Shown: in pieces, positions 53,757 through 58,906 of the stretch
How positions within the stretch are numbered: position 1 is the stretch's first letter
Layout: every line of letters starts with the position of its first letter
From: Methanomassiliicoccales archaeon PtaU1.Bin124
GTDB lineage: Archaea > Thermoplasmatota > Thermoplasmata > Methanomassiliicoccales > UBA472
Direction of reading: 5' to 3'
Length of the DNA: 64,000 bases
Assembly: GCA_002067865.1 (NCBI GenBank)
Contig: MVRC01000006.1
Location: 1-64,000 of the forward strand
The notes under the pieces: generated by a model
What the model was told of the DNA's origin: nothing
Databases searched by the model: none
The model's input: the letters and a program-made list of their open reading frames with translations, nothing else
Made by a program: the position numbers and the translations under genes

Positions 53757-53771
53757 GTTGGTTATACCAAC
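53757..53771. promoter_or_regulatory. Operator-like inverted repeat upstream of the smc TATA box
   Basis: GTTGGT-TAT-ACCAAC is a perfect 6-bp inverted repeat ending 2 bp before the TATA element GATTTATATAATTA (53773-53786), on the BRE. A half-site-like GGTTATA recurs at 53791-53797. A factor bound here would block or recruit TBP/TFB at the smc promoter. Confidence 0.5.
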
Positions 53772-53870
53772 AAGATTTATATAATTACCAGGTTATACAT
53801 TAAATTTGTCTGACAGTCGTCGGACTCGAGGGATGGGATGCAGTCGGAGCTAACGCTTTCGCAGTCGACC

Positions 53871-53891
53871 CTCTCCCCGGCCAGGGGAGGG
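53871..53891 (+). promoter_or_regulatory. Hairpin masking the smc ribosome binding site
   Basis: CTCTCCCC (53871-53878) pairs with GGGGAGGG (53884-53891) around loop GGCCA: eight pairs, one of them T-G. The 3' arm contains GGGGAGGG, the smc ribosome binding site, six bases before ATG 53897. The fold would hide it. The leader from TATA 53773 is about 90 nt and also carries three CAGTCG repeats (53814, 53841, 53862). Confidence 0.5.
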
Positions 53892-53896
53892 TTCTG

Positions 53897-56800
53897 ATGT
53901 ATTTACAGCAGATCGAGGTAGAGAACTTCAAGTCGTTCGGCAAGAAGATGACCATCCCCATGCTGGGCGGTTTCACCGCCGTCACCGGCCCGAACGGTTC
54001 TGGTAAGTCCAACATCTCGGACGCCATCCTTTTCGTGCTGGGGCCGAAGAGCTCCAAGGCTTTGAGGGCTGGGAAGCTCACCGACCTCATCTTCAACGGC
54101 GGCAACTCCAAGCAGCCCGCCAGCTTCTGCAAGGTATCCCTGGTCTTCGACAACGCCGACAGGACCATCCCGGTGGACTCCGACATAGTCCGCCTCACCC
54201 GGCACGTCAAGCTTTCCGAGAGCGAGATCGGCTACAATTCCTACTTCTTCGTCAACGACAAGAAATCATCCCTGGGAGAGTTCGATTACCTTCTGGCCTC
54301 GGCCCGCATCAGCGCCGACGGCTACAACCTGGTGCAGCAGGGCGACGTCACCCGCATCGTGGAGATGTCCCCCCTGGAGCGCCGCAGGCAGCTGGACGAC
54401 ATGTCCGGCATCAGCAAGTTCGACGAGGACATCCTTCGCGCGGAGGGCGAGAAGAAGGGCGCCGAGGAGAACATGGACCGACTGGGCATCATCACCTCCG
54501 AGCTGGAGAAGCAGATGCGCCAGCTGGAGACCGAGAAGACCGCCGCGCTCAGGTTCATGGAGACCCGCGACCGTTTGGCCCTGTCCAAGTCGCGCATGGC
54601 CCACAAGAAGAAGGAGATGTCCGAGGTCGAGGTCAACGCCACCCGCACCCAAATCGACTCCTACAACAAGGAGATCGAAGGCCTCAAGGCCAAGAAGGTG
54701 GAGATGGGAAAGGCCATCACCGAGGCAGAACAGCGCATAGTCCAGCTCGAGAAGGAGATCGACGCCAAGGGCGGCCAGGAGTTCCGCGAGCTGAAGGAGA
54801 AGATGGACGGGGTGCGCATCGAGATCGCCCGCGCCACGGACGCCATCCAGCGCACCGCCGAGGAATCACAGTCATTGCAGGAGGCCCTGAAGCAGCGCAA
54901 GGAGGAGAAGACCAAGCTGCTGGAGGAGGTCAAGGGCATCGAGTCCAAGATCAAGAAGACCGAGACCGCCCTGGCCGAGAAGAAGGCCCTGCTGGATCAG
55001 ACCAAAAAGGACCAAGCAGAGGCCCAGGCGAAGATATCCGCCTCCGACAGCGAGCTGTCCGCACTGGAGAAGCAGGTCGGGGAGATGGACCTGCAGCTCA
55101 CCCAGGGCGAGGAGAAGGCCCACGGGGTCCTGCTGGAGAAGACCAGGATGGAGGACAAGGAGAAGCGCCTCCAATCGGACCTGGCCGGTCTGGAAGAGAC
55201 CCGCAACAACTGCGAGTTCCAGATGAAGGACACGGAGTGGCGCCTGAAGGAGGTGCAGCGCTCCGACAAGACATCGTCCGGCGAGATGAGCACCCTGCAG
55301 GCCCAGTTCTTCGCCAAGCGTTCCCAGGAGGCCAAGGCCTCCCAGCAGCTGGACGAGCTGGAGAACGCCATCAAGACCCTTACCAGAGAGTACAATCATC
55401 TCAAGGCCGAGAGCGAGGCGGCGGAGAGCGTGGCCAAGGGCTACAACCGCGCCGTCCGTTCGCTCATGGAGGCTCGTGACCGTCACGACATCCGCGGCAT
55501 CCACGGGACCGTGGCCGAGCTGGCCAAGGTGGACCCGAAGTACGAGACGGCGTTGAACGTGGCCGCCGGGGCCAGGATGCAGTCGGTCATCGTCGATGAC
55601 GACGAGGTCGCTTCCACTTGCATTCAGCATCTGAAGCGCAACAACCTCGGACGCGCCACGTTCCTGCCGCTCAACAAGATGCTGGACGGGAAGCCGCGCG
55701 GCAAGGCCCAGCTGATCGTCAAGGATGCGGTCGGGTATGCGATCGACCTCATCGATTTCGATGAGAAGTACCGTCCGGCCTTCTGGTACGTGTTCGGAGA
55801 CACCGTCGTGGTCGACTCCCTGGAACAGGCGAGGAGGCTCATGGGAGGCGTAAGGCTGGTAACGGCCAGCGGGGAACTGATCGAGGCTTCCGGCGCCATG
55901 GTGGGAGGCACCCTCGACACCAACGTGCCCAAGTTCGGAGCCAGCAACAAGGGCAAGATGGAGGAGGTCTCGGAGCAGCTGCGCAGGACCATCGAGCACT
56001 CCGAGAAGATGGCCGCCCAGGTGAAGGCGCTCAGGCTGGAGATGCAGCAGCTGGAACAGCGCATGCGCGAGATCAATGGCGCGGAGAGCGGCAATGAGAT
56101 CAAGATCACTGGATTGGAGAGCGGCCTGAAGGAGCAGAGGGCCAAACTGGCCAGGGCCAAGGAGGACATCCTCGTCCTGACAAAACAGCTGGATGAGACC
56201 CGGGCGGCCATCGAGCGGCTGGGCCGGGAGGCATCCTCGTTGGGCTCCAAGAACGACCAGCTGAGGGGGCAGCGCGACGCCGCCAAGCAGAAGGTCATGG
56301 ACCTGGCGCCTCAGGAGCTGGTGACCAAGCTGCGCGAGCTTCAGGCCAAGGTGCTGGAAATGACCGGCGAAGTGGCCAAGCTGGAATCGGAGAAGGCCAC
56401 CATGACCACCCAGGTCGAGCTGCACAAGAAGCGCTTGGCGGAGATGGACGCCTTCGAGAACGAATCGAAGGGAAAGGCCATAAAGCTGAAGGCCGAGGGC
56501 GACGAGGCCAAGGCCAAGGAGACCAAACTGAAGGTGGAGCTGTCCGGGCTTAAGAAGATCGAGGACAGCATGGGCCGGGAGCTGAACGATCTCCGTGCCA
56601 AGAAGGACACAGCCTTCCAGGAAAGGACCCGGCTGGAATCGGAGCGGGACAAGGTCCAGACCAAGGTGGAGACGTCCCAGGACTTCATCATCACGCTGAA
56701 CACCAAGCAGGCCGCGGCGCTGGAGCGCATCAAGGAATGCGAGGCCGAGATACTCCAGATCAAGGTGCCGGTCACCTACCCCTTGCCGTCCATGGACGAC

Positions 56801-57496
56801 ATCAAGGCGGAGATCAACCGGTGCGAGAACTCGCTGGCATCCATGGGGGCCGTGAACCTCCGCTCCATAGAGGACTTCGAGCAGAAGTCCGCCAGGCACA
56901 TCGAGCTCAAGGCGGAGATCAAACGCCTGGACGAGCAGAAGCACGACCTCATCAAGCTGACCACCGAGCTCAACGAGAAGAAGAAGGTGGCATTGCTGAA
57001 GGTCTTCCACGCGGTGAACGAGAACTTCCGCACCGTCTACGCGGAGCTTTCCCAGGGCGGCGAGGCAGAGCTCATCCTGGAGAACGCTGACAAGCCCTTC
57101 GAGGGCGGCCTGATCATGAAATGCAAGCCCCGCAACGGAAAGGTGCTGAGGCTGGAGGCGCTGAGCGGTGGGGAGAAGTCCCTCGCGGCCCTCAGCTTCA
57201 TCTTCGCCATGCAGGACTGGCAGCCATCGCCGTTCTATCTGCTGGACGAGGTGGACATGTTCCTGGACGCGGTCAACGCCGACATGGTGGCGCAGCGCGT
57301 CAAGAAGAGCTCCAAGACCGCGCAGTTCGTCATGATATCACTCAGGAAGGTCACCCTGAACAAGGCTGACCACATCATCGGGGTCACGAAGCCGGAGGCC
57401 GGCATCAGCAACGTGATCATGAAGCCCGACATGGGCGACATCAAGGACCTGCAGGATGACCTGAAGGTCCACCAAGAGAAGGGGGAAACCGCATGA
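53897..57496 (+). CDS. smc: Chromosome segregation ATPase SMC
   Basis: 1199 residues, full length. The N-terminal head has FKSFGKKMTI and Walker A GPNGSGKS (31-38). Two long coiled coils (about 170-510 and 680-1030) flank a hinge (about 520-670, with IRGIHGTVAELAKVDPKYETALNVAAGARMQSVIVDD). The C-terminal head has the signature LSGGEKSLAALSFIFAMQ, Walker B PFYLLDEVDMFLD and a D-loop. It forms the condensin-like ring with ScpA/ScpB encoded next; stop and start overlap by 4 bp. The promoter carries an operator-like repeat and a masked ribosome binding site. Confidence 0.97.
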   Translation: MYLQQIEVENFKSFGKKMTIPMLGGFTAVTGPNGSGKSNISDAILFVLGPKSSKALRAGKLTDLIFNGGNSKQPASFCKVSLVFDNADRTIPVDSDIVRLTRHVKLSESEIGYNSYFFVNDKKSSLGEFDYLLASARISADGYNLVQQGDVTRIVEMSPLERRRQLDDMSGISKFDEDILRAEGEKKGAEENMDRLGIITSELEKQMRQLETEKTAALRFMETRDRLALSKSRMAHKKKEMSEVEVNATRTQIDSYNKEIEGLKAKKVEMGKAITEAEQRIVQLEKEIDAKGGQEFRELKEKMDGVRIEIARATDAIQRTAEESQSLQEALKQRKEEKTKLLEEVKGIESKIKKTETALAEKKALLDQTKKDQAEAQAKISASDSELSALEKQVGEMDLQLTQGEEKAHGVLLEKTRMEDKEKRLQSDLAGLEETRNNCEFQMKDTEWRLKEVQRSDKTSSGEMSTLQAQFFAKRSQEAKASQQLDELENAIKTLTREYNHLKAESEAAESVAKGYNRAVRSLMEARDRHDIRGIHGTVAELAKVDPKYETALNVAAGARMQSVIVDDDEVASTCIQHLKRNNLGRATFLPLNKMLDGKPRGKAQLIVKDAVGYAIDLIDFDEKYRPAFWYVFGDTVVVDSLEQARRLMGGVRLVTASGELIEASGAMVGGTLDTNVPKFGASNKGKMEEVSEQLRRTIEHSEKMAAQVKALRLEMQQLEQRMREINGAESGNEIKITGLESGLKEQRAKLARAKEDILVLTKQLDETRAAIERLGREASSLGSKNDQLRGQRDAAKQKVMDLAPQELVTKLRELQAKVLEMTGEVAKLESEKATMTTQVELHKKRLAEMDAFENESKGKAIKLKAEGDEAKAKETKLKVELSGLKKIEDSMGRELNDLRAKKDTAFQERTRLESERDKVQTKVETSQDFIITLNTKQAAALERIKECEAEILQIKVPVTYPLPSMDDIKAEINRCENSLASMGAVNLRSIEDFEQKSARHIELKAEIKRLDEQKHDLIKLTTELNEKKKVALLKVFHAVNENFRTVYAELSQGGEAELILENADKPFEGGLIMKCKPRNGKVLRLEALSGGEKSLAALSFIFAMQDWQPSPFYLLDEVDMFLDAVNADMVAQRVKKSSKTAQFVMISLRKVTLNKADHIIGVTKPEAGISNVIMKPDMGDIKDLQDDLKVHQEKGETA

Positions 57497-58407
57497 GCGA
57501 CACTAGCTCCGAGGCAGTACTGGGCCATCTGTTGTTCCACCGCGCCATCATCGACGAGGGGGACCGCAGTGAGAAGATCGAAAGGTACATGCAGCTGCTG
57601 AAGCAGGCGGAGATGGGCGAGCACGTCGTGCCGACCGACCCGATCGACCGCTCCATCCAGCTGGTGTTCGAGCTGGTCCTCTCGCAGAACTTCGATCCCT
57701 GGGACGTCAACCTGATGGAGTTCACCCGCCTCTACACCAAGAAAATGCACTCCGACGAGATCAACTTCATCGTCGCTGGCAAGCTGATGTGGATGGCCTG
57801 GAGCATATTCCGCATGCAGTCCAAGGAGGTCCTCACCCTGCACGAACAGCCCGAGGAGTTCGAGCTGGTGACCGCTGAGTGGGACATGGACATGCTGGAC
57901 CAGCTGAGCGAGGAGGAGGCCCTGTCGGTCATCAACACCAAGATACCGGCGGGCGTGGAACTGTCCCCCGCGGTCAGGCATCACACCTCCCGCCCTGTCA
58001 TGCTTGTCGAGCTGCTGGACGCCTTCGACGACGCCCAGCGCGAGATGGAGATCCAGGAGCAGCGCCAGAAGGTGAAGGAGAAGCTGGCCAAGCTGAACAT
58101 CAAGTTCGATGGCAAGGCCCACTCCGAGGACCTGGAGAAGGATGTGCAGATGACCTGGGAGCGCATCATGCGCTGCGGCAACGGCCCCGTCCACTTCGAG
58201 GACCTGGTGGAGGGAGGCAAGGAGGACGCCGTCACCATATTCGTTTCATTGCTCTTCCTGGCCAAGGCCGGGAAGGTGGCCCTGTGGCAGGATGAACTGC
58301 CCTATGGCCAGATATTCCTGGAGATCAAGCTGCCCTGGGACATCGGTACCCTAGAGGACTCCGCGGTCGGACGCGTGCCGGCCGTGGTCAGGCCAGCGGT
58401 GATGTGA
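57493..58407 (+). CDS. scpA: Segregation and condensation protein ScpA (kleisin)
   Basis: 304 residues. N-terminal helical domain that binds the SMC neck (DPIDRSIQLVFELVLSQNFDPWDVNLMEFTRLY), KLMWMAWSIFRMQSKEVL, and a C-terminal winged helix (EDLVEGGKEDAVTIFVSLLFLAKAGKVALWQDELPYGQIFLE) that binds the other SMC head. The ATG overlaps the smc stop. It closes the SMC ring. The linker (about 185-230, charged) is typical. Confidence 0.93.
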   Translation: MSDTSSEAVLGHLLFHRAIIDEGDRSEKIERYMQLLKQAEMGEHVVPTDPIDRSIQLVFELVLSQNFDPWDVNLMEFTRLYTKKMHSDEINFIVAGKLMWMAWSIFRMQSKEVLTLHEQPEEFELVTAEWDMDMLDQLSEEEALSVINTKIPAGVELSPAVRHHTSRPVMLVELLDAFDDAQREMEIQEQRQKVKEKLAKLNIKFDGKAHSEDLEKDVQMTWERIMRCGNGPVHFEDLVEGGKEDAVTIFVSLLFLAKAGKVALWQDELPYGQIFLEIKLPWDIGTLEDSAVGRVPAVVRPAVM

Positions 58408-58408
58408 A

Positions 58409-58906
58409 GTGGAACCGGAGCGTGTGGTCGAGGCCGTTCTCTTCTCTGCCGGGAAGCCGCTGAAGGCATCGGAGATCAGCGACGCCACCGGCCTATCGCA
58501 GGAAGCGGTCCGCAAGGCACTAAAGAAGCTGTCGGACCGGTACGATGAGTCCGGGTCGGCCATGGAGATCGCCCGCGCCGGGCTGAGATATTCCATGGTC
58601 CTCCGGTCGGACGTGGCCTCTTATTCCATCCAGTACGCCGAGAAGGAGATTTCTGACAAGGTGCTCCGCACCGCCGCCATCATCGCCTATAACCAGCCGA
58701 TATTGCAGAGCGACCTGGCCAAGCTCATGGGCTCGGACATCTACGAGGACGTGCACCAGCTGCGCCAGTCGGGCCTGGTCACGGGCAAGAAGACCGGGCA
58801 GACGTGGATGCTGTCCACGACCACCAAGTTCTCCGAGATGTTCGGCATCGGCAGCACCAGAAAGGAAGACATCAAGAGGTGGTTGGAATCGCAATCAAAG
58901 AAGTAG
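58409..58906 (+). CDS. scpB: Segregation and condensation protein ScpB
   Basis: 165 residues with two winged-helix domains: VVEAVLFSAGKPLKASEISDATGLS and DKVLRTAAIIAYNQPILQSDLAKLMGSDIYEDVHQLRQSGLVTGKKTGQTWMLSTT. Starts GTG 58409, 1 bp after the scpA stop. It binds the kleisin linker as a dimer. Complete smc-scpA-scpB operons occur in some euryarchaea. Confidence 0.93.
   Translation: MEPERVVEAVLFSAGKPLKASEISDATGLSQEAVRKALKKLSDRYDESGSAMEIARAGLRYSMVLRSDVASYSIQYAEKEISDKVLRTAAIIAYNQPILQSDLAKLMGSDIYEDVHQLRQSGLVTGKKTGQTWMLSTTTKFSEMFGIGSTRKEDIKRWLESQSKK

Follow-up and report, generated by a model that had tools for sequence, protein, structure and literature searches.

The leader of the smc gene in the archaeal genome studied here carries a 5'-terminal hairpin, designated P1, followed within a few bases by a 14-nt site that is exactly complementary to the loop of a candidate small RNA (sRNA) encoded elsewhere in the same genome. 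The conservation of P1 together with this site is far beyond chance, and the element was not named in the original prediction made for this stretch of DNA. We judge it probable, from comparative sequence analysis, that a conserved trans-acting antisense sRNA controls a chromosome and cell-division regulon by pairing with tags of this type in target leaders. Genome comparison establishes the sRNA gene with its structure, strand and conservation, as well as the complementary sites at orthologous genes.

The smc leader and its conserved element

The window analyzed comprised 64,000 nucleotides of the genome of Methanomassiliicoccales archaeon PtaU1.Bin124 (contig MVRC01000006.1, positions 1 to 64,000), and the features of the smc locus within it are listed below.

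53757..53771, + strand: 6-bp inverted repeat GTTGGT-TAT-ACCAAC, originally proposed as an operator; not conserved
53776..53785, + strand: TATA-box-like TTTATATAAT; spacing to the hairpin comparable in relatives
53808..53825, + strand: 5'-terminal hairpin P1, GUCUGAC-AGUC-GUCGGAC, 7 bp with a tetraloop (covariation)
53829..53842, + strand: sRNA-complementary site AGGGAUGGGAUGCA, 14 nt, complementary to the sRNA loop at every position (comparison)
53846..53859, + strand: weak middle hairpin GGAGC-UAAC-GCUUU; several relatives have a hairpin of different sequence here
53867..53893, + strand: hairpin able to mask the Shine-Dalgarno-like (SD) GGGGAGGG at 53884-53891 (fold, comparison)
53897..57496, + strand: smc, 1199 aa (NCBIfam SMC_prok_A and Pfam)
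57493..58407, + strand: scpA-like ORF overlapping the smc stop (Pfam)
58409..58906, + strand: scpB, behind the scpA-like ORF

The identification of smc was based on a match to NCBIfam SMC_prok_A (944.6 bits against a cut-off of 729.4) and on the Pfam domains SMC_N and SMC_hinge in its product, and the order on the + strand is smc leader, smc, scpA and scpB. The SMC_prok_A type and the TATA-type promoters give the genome an archaeal look. Using the smc protein as a query, the gene was located in 19 of the 22 genomes of the family (f1), own genome included; a further scan of genome contigs with this protein returned one distant Micrarchaeota locus, which was left out of the analysis. From the position of TTTATATAAT, transcription of smc is predicted to start at about 53804-53808.

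P1 (53808-53825) and AGGGATGGGATGCA (53829-53842) are kept in all 19 readable smc leaders of the family, which are 85-99 nt long and begin with GTCYGACANNYGTCGGAC, with GATGGG within a few bases. A strict P1 pattern occurred in 18 of the 22 family genomes, as a single copy in all of these but G003, where there are two. Additionally, a covariance model combining the hairpin and the site (R1) matched in 51 of the 147 genomes of the order, where the elements lie at smc, at a gene for a membrane protein of ~300 aa and at a gene for a protein of ~60 aa. An Rfam search of the smc leader gave no matches up to an E-value of 5.

The pairing within P1 was evaluated in 86 elements from all loci collected at that stage. 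Position 4/15 is paired in 85 of these (C-G 37, U-G 21, G-C 20, U-A 6, A-U 1; the remaining element has U-U) against 50.9 expected from independent columns, a comparison that is not a probability since related sequences were counted. Because the wobbles are U-G and never C-A, P1 is read as an RNA hairpin and not as a DNA operator; the covariation and this asymmetry were the grounds for rejecting the DNA-palindrome reading of P1, which appears to act as an RNA structure.

Some further matches were observed outside these gene classes. Locus L064 (G003:C111:3393-3427), on a contig from a genome with 3% contamination, has the smc leader element in near-perfect form before an ORF that, by reading, is glycoside-hydrolase-like. 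Weak hairpin-plus-site matches lie upstream of serine-recombinase-like genes in two families (L095, G006:C24; L121, G025:C2), and GGATGGGATGC stands at the start of another recombinase-like gene (L260, G045); the recombinase-like names were likewise assigned by reading the sequence.

All of the elements described in the original prediction are present, including the inverted repeat, the TATA-like TTTATATA from 53776, the three CAGTCG copies and the SD hairpin, and comparison with relatives separates them. The inverted repeat, GTTGGTTATACCAAC, is the sole perfect copy of this 15-bp sequence in the genome, and by eye it was absent from all 17 relatives with a readable promoter (18 promoters including the own genome; G011 was omitted as its contig ends at the hairpin). 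Repeats with 6-bp arms and 3-6-nt loops occur about 1.5 times per kb in the window and 3.5 times per kb in its AT-rich stretches. As the repeat is not kept even within the genus, its proposed role as a transcriptional operator is unsupported, and its occurrence at 53757-53771 is probably incidental. In the same region, GGTTATAC occurs twice (53760-53767 and 53791-53798), 31 bp apart and on both sides of the TATA box, and inspection by eye did not reveal it in relatives.

The CAGTCG copies, at 53814, 53841 and 53862, are not retained as a triplet by relatives, and the triplet was rejected as a unit. CAGTCG is rarer in the window than in shuffles (24 observed, 41.8 expected), so that three copies in 54 bp constitute a local cluster; the first of them is part of P1. 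The hairpin said to mask the ribosome site fared better. Its 3' arm, GGGGAGGG, ends 5 nt before the ATG at 53897, and in the own genome it beats shuffles (10-bp arms, 1/200 shuffles). As a class, a stem of at least 5 bp with an SD-like 3' arm was found in 34 of 55 smc leaders, of which only 6 of the 55 beat shuffles (10/200 or fewer). This hairpin is real but weakly supported. For the broader suggestion that condensin level may be set both in transcription and in translation, the operator part found no support, and the comparisons strongly suggest post-transcriptional control of condensin level, mainly via the sRNA-complementary site behind the 5' hairpin.

A conserved candidate small RNA gene and its complementarity to smc leaders

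In each of ten genomes, one ultra-conserved hairpin antisense to GGATGGGATGC was found, located before srp54 wherever the flank was readable. Its stem is GGGAAGG...GGGCUAG / CUAGCCC...UUCCC, its loop contains GUGCAUCCCAUCCC, and it has a TATA box and, in most of the ten, a T run. The copy in the own genome is as follows.

C13:240392-240453, strand opposite to the motif: candidate sRNA gene, ~70 nt, upstream of srp54

A covariance model of the sRNA (R2), built from 5 sequences with 17 pairs, matched in 118 of the 147 genomes of the order and in 65 of the 74 high-quality ones, with one match each as listed. Amongst 400 genomes sampled from the class, 166 had matches, nearly always single (two each in G167 and G221), and the matches listed span the six families of the order and 19 other families. 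Genomes without an R2 match exist, for example in f14 and f18. Twenty consecutive positions of the loop region (GAGUGCAUCCCAUCCCUUCU) are identical in 46 distinct sequences from 23 families, the loop part being exposed on a conserved stem; since the seeds and the R2 model favor the loop, part of this invariance reflects selection by the search.

The outer stem covaries. In helix 1, 5 of the 7 pairs show changes on both sides, and the covariation score of the whole structure was 0.190, compared to 0.126 for shuffled alignments (0/500 shuffles); the loop is unpaired in predicted folds. Strand assignment to the loop strand was based on 49 G-U cells against 4 A-C, on a correctly placed TATA box in 42 of 45 loci against 0 on the opposite strand, and on a T5 run in 25 of 45 loci against 1. 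In silico, the TATA boxes and T5 runs mark the sRNA as a gene in its own right, with a promoter and a terminator. Among the loci checked, those of f1 and f3 have srp54 as the neighboring gene and several of f5 have other genes there, which indicates that the sRNA is not just an srp54 leader. The best Rfam score at the sRNA locus was 27.3 bits, below the gathering score of 74.

The perfect 21-nt target of the sRNA loop is AGAAGGGATGGGATGCACTCT, and the longest exact match to it was scored in 150-nt smc leaders. An exact match of at least 8 nt was observed in 53 of 55 leaders, with 14 nt in the own genome and lengths reaching 16 nt. For comparison, 852 segments of 150 nt were scored across the window; 30 reached 8 nt, 11 reached 9 nt and one reached 14 nt, and this single segment is the smc site itself. 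Two leaders stayed below 8 nt, one from G156, with its site 164 nt ahead of the start that was used, and one from G158, a genome lacking an R2 match. The site is absent from the smc leaders of both genomes read that are without an R2 match, G158 and G154 (the latter examined separately, outside the 55-leader script tally), and G158 has matches of uncertain status to the GGATGGGATGC-type 11-mer.

The sampling of these leaders was uneven. All thirteen from f2, f3 and f5 were recovered with R1, which favors the motif; the 19 f1 leaders from the protein search and a separate set of 24 smc genes are free of this bias. In f6, the 5' hairpin sequence is replaced and the site is reduced to GGGATGC[AG], located 46-77 nt from the smc start in 12 of 12 genomes. 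The smc site of f23 and f19 has degenerated, and the 8-nt match there is in part located outside it.

The conserved unpaired region of the sRNA, a 20-nt segment, is complementary to unlinked mRNAs, with sites in the leaders of smc, ftsZ and other genes. Compensatory sRNA-mRNA changes were not seen, and none are observable because the loop is invariant in 46 of 46 sequences. The predicted duplexes between sRNA and leader are strong (mean of -24 kcal/mol over 52 smc leaders). Upon blocking the site in these leaders, the predicted accessibility of the ribosome site rose in 13 of 52 and fell in 12, and a switch between the site and the SD hairpin was rejected for want of a consistent direction (52 of 55 leaders computed). 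At smc, 54 nt separate the end of the site from the start codon downstream.

The 11-mer GGATGGGATGC is present in 22 of 22 family genomes. It occurs 8 times in the own genome, about twofold the ~3.6 expected per 2.2 Mb when the one-mismatch dinucleotide expectation of the window is scaled. A reversed-pattern control contains TAG triplets and overstates the enrichment, and it was not relied on. Given this modest count, the case rests on orthologous positions and not on counts.

Other tagged genes, loop hairpins and viral copies

A census of 82 distinct 11-mer sites, covering part of the collected loci, placed 7 at smc, 7 at ftsZ, 5 at MFS-like genes, 2 at gyrB, 12 (and L083) at the small-protein gene and 7 in the 3' flank of a CdrS-like RHH gene. 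Eight were sRNA complements, reassigned from the script class 'other', and 33 were in no recognized target class, several of them inside genes. NCBIfam matches at the collected loci comprised FtsZ, GyrB, SRP54 and CdrS-like proteins, all partial sequences below whole-protein cut-offs; the CdrS-like RHH gene matched NF058555 with 47 bits, under the cut-off of 100. Pfam matches were to Tubulin/FtsZ, RHH_1, HATPase_c, SRP54_N, TauE, HisKA and ATP-cone, with the TauE and MFS matches below their cut-offs.

Sites at ftsZ were found at 7 loci in f1 and, in other orders, at L317 (f25), L331 (f19), L333 (f27) and L334 (f23). In f8, one genome has a site just before the start of an RHH gene (L342), a second has it behind a CdrS-like C-terminus (L329) and a third at the small-protein gene (L343); the genes at these f8 loci and at the ftsZ loci of other orders were named by reading translated starts. 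The gyrB leader sites come from one genus. Locus L128 was considered as a second antisense RNA and rejected, its strand and position being those of an ftsZ leader. Two further copies of the element in the own genome were identified with R1.

C2:22223-22258: element at the membrane-protein gene (L066)
C11:220522-220551: element at the small-protein gene

The membrane protein, conserved over ~300 aa (L066, L065, L067, L068, L070, L097-L107), apparently begins with the AUG inside the motif, and its P1 hairpin is mostly in the G-C swapped form. The small protein has ~60-85 aa and a core like WMKTHTIxDLK (L083-L093, L101, L118, L120, L159, L167, L187, L343). One or two sRNA sites precede the start codon in its mRNA, and in some of the genomes a GGAUGGGA hairpin follows the stop. 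Neither protein matched a curated family above cut-off.

At the 3' end of the small-protein transcript, a hairpin presents AGGAUGGGA in its loop (L093, L083). Additionally, the corresponding f5 loci (L111, L115, L117) consist of a 5' GUC hairpin and two stem-loops with AGGAUGGGA loops, with no clear ORF and a tRNA gene, identified by Rfam, just downstream. Hairpins with AGGAUGGGA loops could titrate the sRNA by loop-loop pairing.

An exact search of IMG/VR with the 21-nt loop returned three contigs.

L344, 4000-4020, + strand: viral copy of the loop
L345, 4360-4380, - strand: viral copy of the loop
L346, 4989-5009, - strand: viral copy of the loop

The sequence around the loop is identical in L344 and L345 and distinct in L346, which indicates two different tailed viruses. 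PHROGs matches comprised the major head protein, protease and portal in L344 and the terminase and portal in L346. The viral loops lie between structural genes on hairpin stems unrelated to the host stem, with a TATA-like sequence upstream in L346 and a T run downstream in L344, where the predicted fold leaves the loop partly paired. It is possible that these hairpins mimic the host regulator. Two 17-mer viral matches (L347, L348) had no hairpin, looked like chance and were set aside.

Alternative readings, proposed mechanism and known systems

The GGA-type motif in mRNA leaders brings to mind CsrA/CsrB-type systems, in which a sponge RNA has repeated GGA-containing loops and mRNA leaders have single sites. 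Under such a reading, AGGAUGGGA would be bound by a CsrA/Rsm-like protein, with the loop hairpins and the sRNA locus acting as sponges. The AGGAUGGGA hairpins 3' of the small-protein gene in the own genome, their presence in at least two copies at the three f5 loci and the motif 3' of the CdrS-like gene favor it, and the arrangement resembles the CsrB/RsmY layout. However, the G-U, TATA and T5 counts place the conserved locus on the complementary strand, its loop contains the complement of the GGA motif and not the motif itself, and a sponge with the complement would not be a ligand of that protein. Equally well, the loop hairpins can be read as target mimics pairing with the sRNA loop, and the partner found here is an RNA with a complementary loop. 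We regard this explanation as unlikely. It is somewhat less probable still that P1, palindromic and located where transcription starts, serves as a DNA operator, bound for example by a CdrS-like RHH protein, with GGATGGGATGC as its extension. In its favor, GTCCGACANNTGTCGGAC is palindromic as DNA, keeps a fixed distance from the TATA box and recurs at several promoters. A conserved operator sequence independent of RNA pairing was not found, as the inverted repeat is unconserved and P1 behaves as RNA: position 4/15 covaries with 21 U-G and no C-A, the P1 loops include GNRA tetraloops, the spacing from hairpin to site ranges from 1 to 24 nt in the collected elements, and f6 swaps the hairpin sequence yet retains GGGATGC.

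The motif might also act only in cis, as a short 5' leader in which GG-AUG-GGA opens a uORF or as a sequence that loads ribosomes, the complementarity to the sRNA being incidental. Nearly all targets have an AUG within the site, and for the membrane-protein gene this AUG is likely the start codon. We nonetheless consider a cis-only role quite improbable: chance would not be expected to give matches as long as 16 nt to an RNA loop whose conservation is independent, sites 3' of the CdrS-like gene serve no start codon, and uORF peptides and stops are not conserved. A uORF starting at the site was itself rejected, since frames and stops vary among relatives. Least probable of all, and in our judgement very doubtful, is the original prediction, in which a transcriptional operator and an SD-masking hairpin set the condensin level. 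The repeat and the hairpin do exist, and the hairpin class recurs in more than half of the smc leaders (34/55), but the repeat is not conserved and few of the hairpins (6/55) surpass shuffled sequences.

In the sRNA-based mechanism that we favor, each genome would contribute one sRNA gene with its own TATA box and often a T-run terminator, and target mRNAs would carry (G)GGAUGGGAUGC(AC), often right behind a 5'-terminal GUCNGAC hairpin. Pairing of the sRNA would block or reshape the 5' region of the mRNA. In the membrane-protein and MFS-like targets, whose site covers the start codon, translational repression by occlusion would be the simplest outcome; the smc, ftsZ and gyrB sites stand farther upstream, ~50-90 nt from the start, and the effect there may therefore be on ribosome entry or mRNA stability. 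Transcription of the sRNA, its pairing in cells, the direction of the effect and a physiological trigger are what we infer from these patterns. The set of tagged genes (smc, ftsZ, gyrB, the CdrS-like regulator and two uncharacterized genes) points to coordination of condensation and division. As other cell-division genes share the smc tag, one sRNA may coordinate chromosome folding with division. For the more ambitious proposal, we see about even chances: that an ancient, near-invariant sRNA is a class-wide master riboregulator of smc, ftsZ and the CdrS-like gene, tuned by sponges, and that viral versions of it seize host division.

The coordination of chromosome folding with FtsZ-based division in archaea is largely open. 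If the proposal is true, an sRNA shared by the class, whose target tag is found on smc, ftsZ and the CdrS-like gene, would provide a directly testable layer of control, its conservation would be unusually wide for an archaeal regulatory RNA, judging from the parts of the literature accessed, and the viral copies would hint at viral interference with host division. The literature search, within the portions of sources available, returned no description of this sRNA or regulon.

Amongst known systems, those parts of the reports available to us describe regulators of a related kind. EcpR1, an alpha-proteobacterial trans-sRNA, has a conserved stem-loop whose loop pairs with gcrA and dnaA mRNAs, and it is Hfq-independent and experimentally proven (PMC4414408). 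The likeness is in a strongly conserved sRNA loop that pairs with cell-cycle mRNAs; in contrast, EcpR1 is bacterial, its targets as described there are not smc or ftsZ leaders with a common 5' hairpin tag, and it was proven by experiment (PMC4414408), whereas the sRNA here is a candidate predicted from sequence. In Methanosarcina, sRNA162 pairs with mRNAs and masks the ribosome binding site (PMC3510493), and sRNA154 acts through loops and is reported as conserved in Methanosarcina (PMC5867862). Both resemble the present candidate as archaeal trans-acting sRNAs that base-pair with mRNAs (PMC3510493, PMC5867862), and differ from it in that the sections consulted describe metabolic and nitrogen targets, with no leader tag across many mRNAs and no cell-division regulon. 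In haloarchaea, ftsZ1, ftsZ2, sepF and an smc homologue go down when cdrS-ftsZ2 is repressed (PMC8406309). That gene set overlaps with the one found here, where a CdrS-like RHH gene is amongst the tagged loci, but CdrS is a DNA-binding protein that acts at transcription (PMC8406309), while an RNA acting on mRNAs is proposed here. Altogether, and within what these sources report in the parts available, a trans-acting sRNA with a conserved loop is of a kind already known from EcpR1 (PMC4414408) and sRNA162 (PMC3510493), and the candidate described here is different from known systems in its conservation across the class, in the hairpin tag on its putative targets and the set of cell-division genes among them, and in having viral copies.
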